56,301 nucleotides of DNA, from positions 12,506 to 68,806 of the forward strand of contig JALWMA010000106.1 in NCBI GenBank assembly GCA_027081015.1. The letters are read 5' to 3'. Of the stretch, positions 13,379 through 46,349 are shown in pieces. This DNA comes from Campylobacterales bacterium (lineage in GTDB: Bacteria; Campylobacterota; Campylobacteria; Campylobacterales; Hydrogenimonadaceae). The notes beneath the pieces were generated by a model, which saw only the letters and a list, made by a program, of their open reading frames with translations, was not told the origin of the DNA and made no database searches. The first letter of the stretch is position 1. Each line of letters opens with the position of its first letter. A program made the translations under genes and the position numbers.

Positions 13379-13590
13379 CATAACGACTTTACCGGTACCA
13401 TAAAGATGTATCCGTAAATATGCATATTACGCTGTTTACGCAGACTGTTAGATAACTGATTTAAATCATCTCTGAATCTAAGGTTTCGAAGCTTCAGGGG
13501 GTTGTAGGGCCGGCCGGGCCCTGCCGGATTGCGGGCTTGCCCGGAATTTTCGTAATCAGTTAGATAAAAATTGTTTAAAAAAGGATAGCT
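13379..13590. other. metE leader with inverted repeats
   Basis: Non-coding. It holds family-1 repeat copy C (13481-13555, reversed), flanked by a 9-bp inverted repeat TAACTGATT / AATCAGTTA (13453-13461 / 13554-13562), so the whole block can fold as one hairpin. AAGGA at 13581-13585 serves metE. No clear -10 box stands out. Confidence 0.5.
13481..13555 (-). repeat. Dispersed intergenic repeat, family 1, copy C
   Basis: On the minus strand it reads TTACGAAAATTCCGGGCAAG, then GGCAGGGCCCGGCCGGCCC, ACAACCCCCTGAAGCTTCGAA, the same block order as copies A and F. It is the only copy in this orientation within the window and lies in the metE leader. Confidence 0.7.
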
Positions 13591-18884: not shown

Positions 18885-18894
18885 AGAGTTTTGG

Positions 18895-18971
18895 TTTCGC
18901 AACTCCGGGACAGGCAGGCAATAGGGCAGGGCCCGAGCGGCCCTGCAGCCGCACGAGGCTCCGAAGCCTGC
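18895..18971 (+). repeat. Dispersed intergenic repeat, family 1, copy D
   Basis: TTTCGCAACTCCGGGACAGG (from 18896), GGGCAGGGCCCGAGCGGCCC and the GAGGCTCCGAAGCCTGCGG stretch follow the family block order with changes. It fills the 89-bp gap between the convergent deaminase and cysE genes and folds strongly, so it could end transcription from both sides. Confidence 0.6.
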
Positions 18972-34948: not shown

Positions 34949-35060
34949 TTACGCAAATTCCGGGCCGAGCCAGTAATTTGGCAGGTGGTGAGCGGCCCTA
35001 CGACCCCCTAAAGCTTCGAAGTCACAGATTTCGAGACGATTTTACACATTCTGCGTAAAA
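34949..35060 (+). repeat. Dispersed intergenic repeat, family 1, copy F (most complete)
   Basis: Begins TTACGCAAATTCCGGGC (34949-34965) and ends GATTTTACACATTCTGCGTAAAA (35038-35060); TTACGCA at the left is inverted as TGCGTAA at the right. Internal blocks GGCAGGTGGTGAGCGGCCCT, ACGACCCCCTAAAGCTTCGA and ATTTCGAGACGATTTTAC agree with copy A base for base over most of the length. About 112 bp. Confidence 0.75.
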
Positions 35061-36174: not shown

Positions 36175-36274
36175 ACATATCTTTTTTCAAGAATATTAAA
36201 AGTTTTCGGTATGAAGTTGTAAGGCATTTATACGAGACCTATTTATACTTCAGATTAGATTTGTAATAACAAAC

Positions 36275-36554
36275 CCAAATGAAAACGAAACACCCGGCCG
36301 TCATCCTCGCTCGACGAGTGCTCCGAGCCCGTCAAGTTGTCGACGAAAGCCTGAAAATAGTGAACAAGCGGATGTCTGCTATGCCTTAGGCATATACGCA
36401 GCGTCGTGCGAATCTGCGAAAGTAAAGCATTTACTTTCGCTATACGCTTCTTTCCCTGCGGGTTTGAGCACGATTTTCGGGCGGCTTTCGTTCGACTCGC
36501 TCCCTCAGGTCTCGCTGCGGTGACGACCGAATGCTTCGTTCTCTTTTTATTTGG
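36275..36554. mobile_element. 280-bp fold-back element (MITE-like), long copy
   Basis: The ends are inverted: AAATGAAAACGAAACACCCGG... at the left and ...CGAATGCTTCGTTCTCTTTTTATTT at the right. Symmetry continues inward: CGACGAAAGCCTGAAAATAGTG (left) against the complement of CACGATTTTCGGGCGGCTTTCGTTCG (right), with centre hairpin GAAAGTAAAGCATTTACTTTC near 36418-36438. Almost the whole element is one imperfect palindrome. The same ends, closed over a short loop, form the 67-bp copy at 45706-45772. No transposase is seen. Confidence 0.6.
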
Positions 36555-36641
36555 TTTCGGTATAAGTATAAAGAGAATCTGCTTTTAAGGTTTTTTATAA
36601 CTTGAATCGTATTTCTCAAAATTATTCAGGTTTAATCTTAT

Positions 36642-45325: not shown

Positions 45326-45697
45326 ATGAAAAATAGCTTCCTGATACTGCTTCTGCTTGTTTCCTCTATCTTTGCCGATCGGCTCAGTTTCGACGATATC
45401 GAGACCTCCATACTCTCCAAAAAGAGCGGAGAACCCGTAGCTATCGAGCTATCACTCGTTCTTGAAGGGCGCGATATCTCCCAAAGCAGGGTGCAGCTCA
45501 TGGATACGATCCAGAGTGTCGTCGGAGGCTTCTGGGCCGAGACTCTTGTAACGTCGCAGGGAAAAGAGAGCTTTAAAAAGAGCGTCGTCGCTGTTGCCGA
45601 CAAAAAGTACGGTATAGAGGTCGACTATGTCTATATCCTGAATCTCAAGGTTCAAACCTGCACTCTCGAAAAGCTGAAACAGCTGCTTGAAAAGTGA
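45326..45697 (+). CDS. Small exported protein, FliL-like
   Basis: The 123-residue protein has a signal peptide (MKNSFLILLLLVSSIFAD). The rest has the FliL pattern: beta strand EPVAIELSLVLEGRD, helix SRVQLMDTIQSVVGGFWAETLVTSQGKESFKKSVVAVADK, then strand VDYVYILNLKVQ. Real FliL has an N-terminal membrane anchor and binds the stator; here a cleavable signal is more likely. A paralogue of FliL of unknown role is the best reading; no flagellar gene is adjacent. It converges with lolA. Confidence 0.6.
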   Translation: MKNSFLILLLLVSSIFADRLSFDDIETSILSKKSGEPVAIELSLVLEGRDISQSRVQLMDTIQSVVGGFWAETLVTSQGKESFKKSVVAVADKKYGIEVDYVYILNLKVQTCTLEKLKQLLEK

Positions 45698-45705
45698 TGC
45701 CAATG

Positions 45706-45772
45706 CCAAATGAAAACGAAACACCCGCTCCTCATTCTCGCTCGACGGGTGCTTCGTTCTCTTTTTATTTGG
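45706..45772. terminator. Fold-back element, short copy, acting as bidirectional terminator
   Basis: CCAAATGAAAACGAAACACCCG ... CGGGTGCTTCGTTCTCTTTTTATTTGG folds to a long stem with A-rich 5' and T-rich 3' arms; CCAATG / AATTGG extends it outward. It is placed between convergent genes and would terminate in both directions. The ends match the 280-bp element at 36275-36554, so it is probably an internally deleted derivative. Confidence 0.7.
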
Positions 45773-45824
45773 AATTGGTATAAGAGCTTTTTTTCAATGT
45801 GGCGGCCGGAAAGAGAAAGAGGAG

Positions 45825-46349
45825 TCAGTAGCGTCCGTCGATGATATCGAAATCTTCCGGTATTTCACAGTTTAGTTTGGAGCGGTCGAAAGGTTCCGTA
45901 TCGAGATTTTGGAAACGGAGCGTGACCCTGTTTCCCATCTCATCGAGATAGCTTACCGACTTGATCATCTTTTCGGAGTCTACCTCTATTTTGTAGTCGA
46001 CGCCCCCGTATTCGGCCATGTAGGTTCCGTCGTCTACCTTTTGGGCGCTCTCCAAGATAGCCATGAGCGGTATACTCTTTTTTAGTCTGAAGAGTGTGGC
46101 CTGTTCCAGCTCCGGCTCTACTACCCACGCTTTGTGATCTTGAAGGCAGATCGTCTTTTTGAGGGGAATGAAGTACTCCCACTTCGCCTCTTCGGGCATC
46201 TTCATATAGAGCTTACCGCTGTAGTAGAGCTGCTTTTTGGTATCTTTGTTCTGAACGACCTGTGTGAAATCGGCGCTTATATACCGCGGTACCGGCAGAG
46301 ATGCCTGAAGGAGTCCGGCCGTTAGGGCCGCTATTGCTAATATTCTCAT
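45825..46349 (-). CDS. lolA: Outer-membrane lipoprotein chaperone LolA
   Basis: Periplasmic carrier taking lipoproteins from the Lol ABC complex to the outer membrane. 174 residues: signal peptide (MRILAIAALTAGLLQASLP), then the LolA opening ISADFTQVVQNKDTKKQLYYSGKLYMKMPEEAKWEY and the later LRFQNLDTEPFDRSKL...EIPEDFDII. Divergent from secA, as in other Campylobacterota. No LolB is expected in this group. A lolE-type permease gene lies just after secA. Confidence 0.9.
   Translation of the reverse strand: MRILAIAALTAGLLQASLPVPRYISADFTQVVQNKDTKKQLYYSGKLYMKMPEEAKWEYFIPLKKTICLQDHKAWVVEPELEQATLFRLKKSIPLMAILESAQKVDDGTYMAEYGGVDYKIEVDSEKMIKSVSYLDEMGNRVTLRFQNLDTEPFDRSKLNCEIPEDFDIIDGRY

Follow-up and report, generated by a model that had tools for sequence, protein, structure and literature searches.

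What kind of element places two fold-back sequences, one long and one short but with the same ends, within a single stretch of a Campylobacterales genome? The stretch analysed here, referred to as the window, comprises 56,301 nucleotides (G000:C106:12506-68806) of the host genome G000, an assembly of 2.14 Mb in 147 contigs. A preliminary description had taken the two copies as members of a family of miniature inverted-repeat transposable elements (MITEs) whose derivatives serve as bidirectional terminators. Both parts of this proposal are considered below, together with a conserved structured unit that lies at the tip of the long copy.

Borders and Folding of the Two Copies

The shared ends, the sizes, and the positions first given for the two copies were borne out on the sequence, with a correction of the borders. 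The terminal inverted repeats are imperfect; the 5' and reverse-complemented 3' ends of 17 aligned copies agree in the consensus TACCAATCCCAAATRAAAA, and complementary arms of about 100 bp come after them. As the family ends read TACCAATCCCAAAT... in the 17-copy alignment, the true borders are 36267-36562 and 45698-45780, and those drawn in the preliminary description (36275-36554 and 45706-45772) left out 8 bp at either end. TATTTGG, which had been read as the end of the copies, is followed by four variable bases and then by GGTA, where the terminal inverted repeat (TACCAATCCCAAAT...) has its outer end. The letters GGTATAAG, which had been seen to follow both copies, are indeed present, but they represent the terminal repeat, the (putative) target duplication TAA, and one chance G.

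The long copy had been recognised as an imperfect palindrome across nearly its whole length, and it folds over that whole length at -107.8 kcal/mol (z -5.0; shuffle mean -81.6, sd 5.2; 0 of 200 shuffles as low), with the central hairpin near 36418-36438 found at that place. The short copy also folds (-22.5 kcal/mol, z -5.25; shuffle mean -9.5, sd 2.5; 0 of 200 shuffles as low) and is flanked, as had been noted, by convergent genes (45326-45697 on the plus strand and 46349..45825 on the minus strand). Its target duplication is imperfect, with TGA on the left against TAA on the right. No ORF of at least 80 aa was found over 36267-36562 or 45698-45780. The coordinates of the features discussed here are collected in Table 1.

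Table 1. Features of the window (positions counted from its first letter) and host loci of the MITE-like family (contigs of G000).
Feature	Position	Strand	Description or basis
Long MITE-like copy	36267..36562	.	296 bp with TAAC...GGTA as outermost bases; aligned to 16 other copies, flanking-base table
Left target duplication of long copy	36264..36266	.	TAA; flanking-base table
Right target duplication of long copy	36563..36565	.	TAA; flanking-base table
Left terminal inverted repeat and left-arm start of long copy	36267..36300	+	TAACAAACCCAAATGAAAACGAAACACCCG
Right terminal inverted repeat of long copy	36530..36562	-	reverse complement TACCGAAACCAAATAAAAAGAGAACGAAGC
GGAG module, central two-hairpin unit at fold-back tip of long copy	36369..36454	-	R1 match, 94.8 bits, E 1.2e-19
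Short copy	45698..45780	.	83 bp, interior deleted, both ends retained
TGA left of short copy	45695..45697	.	stop codon of gene 45326-45697
TAA right of short copy	45781..45783	.	
Terminator-like stem and T-rich tail in short copy	45739..45751	+	consensus match only; simple terminator scan
Upstream ORF, convergent neighbour of short copy	45326..45697	+	123 aa
Downstream ORF, convergent neighbour of short copy	45825..46349	-	174 aa
tRNA-Gly(gcc), module-free site in host genome	25285..25359	-	
Five long host loci	C106, C40, C124, C45, C57		
Two 218-bp host loci	C147, C34		
One 151-bp host locus	C121		
Two short host loci	C106 (window 45698), C40b		

Copies, Size Classes, and Insertion Sites

A 306-base query was searched against 40 genomes, the host included, and gave matches in six of them. 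The 14 BLAST matches in the host genome resolve into 10 loci of 78-296 bp (Table 1), and an eleventh, decayed copy lies at G000:C138. Further copies occur in two congeners, G005 and G010, and the family is present in these and in G000 among the 18 genomes of the genus; the remaining 15 of the 17 congeners gave no match to the family with this query. Three genomes (G017, G022, and G034) match the query in its centre only. The preliminary description had staked its proposal on other copies in the genome and on matching ends in relatives, and both exist, at the 10 host loci and in 2 of the 17 congeners.

Seventeen copies of 78-307 bp were aligned, some weaker matches in G005 and G010 being left out. 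They fall into a long class (271-307 bp) and a mid-sized class (200-218 bp), followed by copies of 151, 106, and 78-83 bp, and the copies of 218, 204, 203, 200, 151, 106, 83, and 78 bp show stepwise larger interior losses with both ends retained. The short copy had been described as the ends joined, which agrees with the nested internal deletions seen in the alignment, and the series supports the view that short copies probably derive from long ones by internal deletion. The long complementary arms would form a hairpin whose middle is easily lost, producing the size series, and the individual deletions may have arisen by slippage over this hairpin. A short insertion with identical flanks is common to G000 and G010, and a matching short copy is found in G005; some short copies are therefore old.

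Identical 3-bp sequences stand on both sides of 10 of the 17 copies (TAA, TTA, or CTA; mostly TAA or TTA, with one CTA), the 17 including two pairs of copies at a shared site; in the other seven, the 3-bp flanks differ, in six of these by one base. The joined flanks of 11 copies, without the element, were searched for empty sites in G000, G005, and G010. The copy L023 of G005 has an empty counterpart at G000:C19 (96% over 338/341 bases) in which exactly one TAA is missing, L003 has an empty site in G005:C74, and for L007 an empty duplicate of its own flanks lies within the host genome (G000:C66). In G000, the counterparts of L033 and L020 are uninterrupted but diverged (84% and 77%), and at G000:C138 the site of L015 is occupied by the decayed copy. 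The short window copy is missing from G005:C37, where no element interrupts the sequence after the stop codon TGA. At the position of the long window copy, the intergenic DNA of G005 cannot be aligned, the flanks being too diverged for a clean empty site. Target-site duplications and empty sites in relatives were what the preliminary description had suggested looking for, and both were found (10/17 copies; G000:C19, G005:C74, and G005:C37). These 3-bp duplications and the empty sites, found in a sister species and in one case inside the host genome, show an insertion that is transposition-like and, as read from the flanks, precise, with a 3-bp duplication.

Nature of the Family and Search for a Parent Transposase

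Bacterial MITEs are short and gene-less, with terminal inverted repeats, a target duplication, intergenic positions, and several sizes, and all of these traits (PMC10969869) are common to the family described here. The MITE-type classification with which the analysis began is upheld: the family has inverted repeats at its termini, duplicates 3 bp of its target, is present in several copies, has empty sites, and lacks coding capacity. Both window copies are, in all likelihood, copies of a non-autonomous MITE-like transposon that inserts at TNA-like sites with a 3-bp duplication, carries a structured module at the tips of its long copies, and has given rise to shorter forms by internal deletion. 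As a kind of element, the MITE family is ordinary, and an earlier description of it was not found in the openly licensed literature.

Mobilisation in trans would depend on a transposase, lost or absent, that would cut at the TACC ends and insert the element at TNA. A parent transposase had also been proposed as something to look for, and none was found in the 18 genus genomes: a pattern search for the terminal inverted repeats in these genomes, several of which are incomplete drafts, gave no inverted pair at IS-like spacing, as judged by eye. A 3-bp TNA duplication is a mark of IS5-type elements, which this family resembles in the size and sequence of its target duplications; it differs from them in that its host genome has no match to PF01609. 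Among the 18 genus genomes, PF01609 is present in G005 and G009 only, and the PF01609 gene of G005 was rejected as the parent, as it has no matching ends and the host genome is without PF01609. Because a lost parent is common for MITEs and several of the drafts are incomplete, the missing parent lowers the claim about the origin of the family and not the claim about its mobility. Two features set the family apart from bacterial MITEs as described above: the parent transposase was not found, and a structured module of order-wide distribution is nested at the tip.

A Conserved Two-Hairpin Module at the Tip of the Long Copies

The weak matches of query positions 126-199 in G017, G022, and G034 led to this module, and an alignment of nine sequences shows two hairpins and compensatory changes in them. 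The unit, named the GGAG module here, is 87 nt long at the tip of the long form (about 87-97 nt overall) and consists of two hairpins with the conserved loop AACTGCTT. A covariance model built from the module alignment, R1, has its sole match in the window at E<=0.001 at the tip of the long copy (Table 1). At E<=0.01, R1 finds the module in 92 of 248 genomes of the order, in 18 of 18 genomes of the genus, and in 37 of 73 genera; in a phylum sample, it does so at E<=1e-5 in 35 of 249 genomes. A search of 84,980 species with an exact DNA pattern of the module core gave 45 stretches, 44 of which are labelled Campylobacterales, Campylobacteraceae, Epsilonproteobacteria, Helicobacter, or Sulfurovum (many from Helicobacter sp. 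11S02596-1). The remaining stretch, L156, is labelled as a Caldisericaceae MAG and may be a mis-binned contig. At L156:4379-4475 and L170:278-363, the module lies within genes that resemble, by eye, those of RHS/YD-repeat proteins.

The two-hairpin structure is accompanied by covariation. In 62 aligned module matches (55 distinct), 95.6% of cells are paired and 24 of the 30 pairs show two-sided change, and the covariation score is 0.546, against 0.164 for shuffled and at most 0.081 for slid alignments; the alignment had been fitted to the structure beforehand, which favours its score. Among 4133 cells of 142 sequences, 187 are G-U wobble cells against 33 A-C, with 85 of the 187 coming from one pair, and from this excess of G-U over A-C the plus strand of the model appears to be the strand that folds.

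Scans of the window and 20 module loci with Rfam 15 (4227 families) brought only tRNA and rRNA to the gathering threshold, and permissive Rfam scans of four module stretches gave only matches at E>=2.8, which is chance level. No blastn match to one module copy was found in plasmids and phages, and IMG/VR gave 0 matches to the module pattern. An earlier description of the GGAG module was not found in the openly licensed literature.

The Module within and outside the MITE Arms

In the host genome, five of the eight module matches at E<=1e-5 are MITE tips, and the other three lie elsewhere, without MITE arms. Across module sites, 20 of 137 have inverted-repeat flanks above the 99% control of mispaired flanks, a conservative threshold since the mispaired arm controls can pair members of one family (maximum 34). 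The fold-back arms round the module form six groups by sequence, and the arm groups of L098 and L119, which share an end, may be related. At the MITE tip, the module is without a long direct repeat and has only CTG beside it in some copies, which counts against capture.

The GGAG module seems to be a mobile element in its own right that was captured by the MITE, whose tip it would have reached as a separate unit and not by common origin. A different origin is suggested by the position of the module, which is identical in 7 of the 7 aligned long copies, and by one shared site that has module-bearing and module-less versions (a module in G000:C45 and none in G005:C73); the CTG microhomology at the module base in some copies would, in addition, favour deletion by slippage. 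The module could then be an integral, ancestral part of the MITE whose tip hairpin was lost from the module-less copies, a reading that is conceivable but rather doubtful, as the module occurs without MITE arms in the host genome (the three matches mentioned above) and is found in other repeats with unrelated arms.

Placement of the Copies and the Terminator Question

Of 15 MITE copies examined, 12 have ORFs on both sides, six of them convergent, six tandem, and none divergent. A simple terminator scan found one terminator-like site, on the plus strand of the short copy (Table 1), and none on its minus strand or in the long copy; the bidirectional role first proposed is weakly supported. Three shorter host copies (the short window copy, C40b, and C121) do lie between convergent ORFs, the short form folds strongly, and there is the single plus-strand site; it is nevertheless unlikely that the copies are kept as bidirectional transcription terminators with their mobility being incidental, because the minus strand of the short copy and the whole of the long copy are without such a site, 6 of the 12 copies with ORFs on both sides sit between tandem ORFs, and insertion at TNA, stop codons included, yields an identical placement without selection. 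Insertion close to stop codons would account for the placement of the MITE copies no less than a terminator role would.

Target Sites of the Module

In 30 of 142 sites, a direct repeat (score >=10) ends at the module 5' end, hits of <75 nt and short-flank sites having been dropped beforehand; the controls gave 11 of 701 for mispaired flanks and 8 of 142 for sites shifted by 40 nt, and no such direct repeat is seen in the other 112 of the 142 sites. Many of the 30 repeat sites are shared or tandem, and 18 are distinct (last 14 nt, score >=12). The second copy of the repeat lies mostly 34-67 nt past the module 3' end.

The targets are of several kinds. In all 17 tRNA cases that were read, the module is antisense to the tRNA and the junction falls in the T-loop, reading ..TCGAAC in 16 of them and a degenerate form in the host copy L230; tRNA-Asp, Lys, Thr, Pro, Arg, and Gly are affected, each with an intact copy of the tRNA retained. 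CRISPR repeats, named as such from the repeat sequence, are the targets at L158, L169, L189, and L205. At L130 (3900-4250) and L222, the start of a gene, presumably bcp-like, is the target, with duplications of 50 and 61 bp of the gene start. In the rRNA spacer of G034 and G065, the module lies beside tRNA-Ala, and a 16-18 bp repeat of the tRNA-Ala end comes after the module without touching it; each of these genomes has three module copies of equal score, and the rRNA-spacer position is that read at L102 and L103. The tRNA-Gly(gcc) gene of the window is free of the module (Table 1), and a like tRNA-Gly(gcc)/tRNA-Leu(caa) pair in the congener G003 carries it with a 24-bp duplication (L125). 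Targeting of hairpin loops as a general rule was rejected, since the tRNA insertions are mostly at the edge of the T-loop and the other sites are mixed.

Head-to-tail module arrays with a unit of about 126-185 bp occur at L129, L131, L142, L158, and L199.

Proposed Mobility of the Module and Search for a Mobiliser

It is proposed, tentatively and with some reserve, that the GGAG module may be an undescribed, order-wide mobile nucleic acid of Campylobacterales, in which the module and a tail copy into conserved sites with a 15-61 bp target duplication and are mobilised in trans. The mobile unit would consist of the module and a tail of mostly 34-67 nt (about 120-160 bp together), inserted with a duplicated target as the repeats suggest, and its entry points would include the T-loops of tRNAs, the repeats of CRISPR arrays, the starts of genes, and the tips of other fold-back elements. 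With the inner edge of the 15-61 bp duplication exactly at the module 5' end, the host gene would stay intact. Staggered insertion is one candidate route; others are target-primed copying and a site-specific recombination in which a tRNA end is carried along. Survivor bias could explain why the repeats in genes reach the gene end.

An RNA, or one single strand, would be expected to show strong covariation and a wobble strand bias, and both would also suit a stationary structured RNA gene or regulator; that the module is of this kind and not a mobile element is quite improbable, however, since module sites are scattered in unrelated surroundings, direct repeats flank the module, tandem copies exist, and the tRNA-Gly site in the window is unoccupied.

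For the module as a mobile unit, a mobiliser was sought among its neighbours. ORF clustering at 38 and then at 65 loci revealed no recurrent neighbour gene near modules; all clusters reflected shared neighbourhoods, common families, or ORFs lying across the module. Six genomes have RVT_1, and in three of them a module is located about 0.6-1 kb from a reverse transcriptase (RT) gene. Those RT genes are RT-Cas1 fusions beside Cas2, and the modules are at broken, array-end CRISPR repeats by RT-Cas1/Cas2 (L298:7599-8007, L299:7411-8095, and L300:1824-2095); the link between RT and module is therefore best read as a shared target and not as a parent. A reverse transcriptase as autonomous parent was rejected, the RT genes being RT-Cas1 fusions and 12 of the 18 module-bearing genomes having no RVT_1, and RT-Cas1 might conceivably still act as a mobiliser of the module.

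The module at the MITE tip would matter more than the MITE, as it is conserved, covarying, apparently mobile, and spread through one bacterial order that includes Helicobacter. It occurs in or next to tRNA genes, rRNA spacers, and CRISPR arrays, and Rfam does not contain it. Because its direct repeats are long and exactly placed, the mechanism of insertion can be tested directly.

Comparison with Known Elements

Genomic islands that integrate at tRNA genes by tyrosine integrases have a direct repeat from the T-loop to the tRNA 3' end and retain an intact tRNA. The module shares both features with them; in contrast to these islands, its unit is only about 120-160 bp, is gene-less, and has several unrelated targets.

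The BOX, RUP, and SPRITE elements of Streptococcus pneumoniae (PMC10969869) are short repeats that insert into each other and have terminator-like relatives, as is the case here. The likeness is one of description. S. pneumoniae is an unrelated bacterium, and in the present case a single conserved two-hairpin module is met again in several host repeats that are unrelated to one another.

The GTAG and CGTC super-families of REPs, reported in a Sulfurovum strain, are tagged palindromes, as here, and the CGTC REPs are likewise without a dedicated transposase (PMC3733652). They are single hairpins of 20-40 bp, whereas the module has about 87-97 nt, two hairpins, and the loop AACTGCTT, and in some sites a direct repeat of 15-61 bp. 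That the elements are REP/BIME-type repeats moved by a RAYT (a Y1 transposase), as their palindromic and intergenic copies, the GGAG-like tag at one foot of the module hairpin, and the report of such REPs in Sulfurovum might suggest, is highly improbable and was rejected, since the host genome has no PF01797 (Y1_Tnp) match, 11 of the 18 module-bearing genomes searched have no Y1_Tnp (present in 7 of 18), the copy number is low, and the 20-40 bp given for REPs (PMC3733652) stands against 78-307 bp, inverted ends, and a 3-bp duplication here.

Another repeat family (GGCAGG.GGTGAGCGGCCCTAC..ACCCCCT.AAGCTTCGAA) occurs in the window at 1-75, 13463-13558, 18892-18969, and 34980-35054, and side matches place dozens of its copies in G000 and G005. 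Between 32146 and 33004, the window also contains repeats spaced 216/324 bp within a minus-strand ORF, presumably as in tandem-repeat proteins (Sel1/TPR-like).
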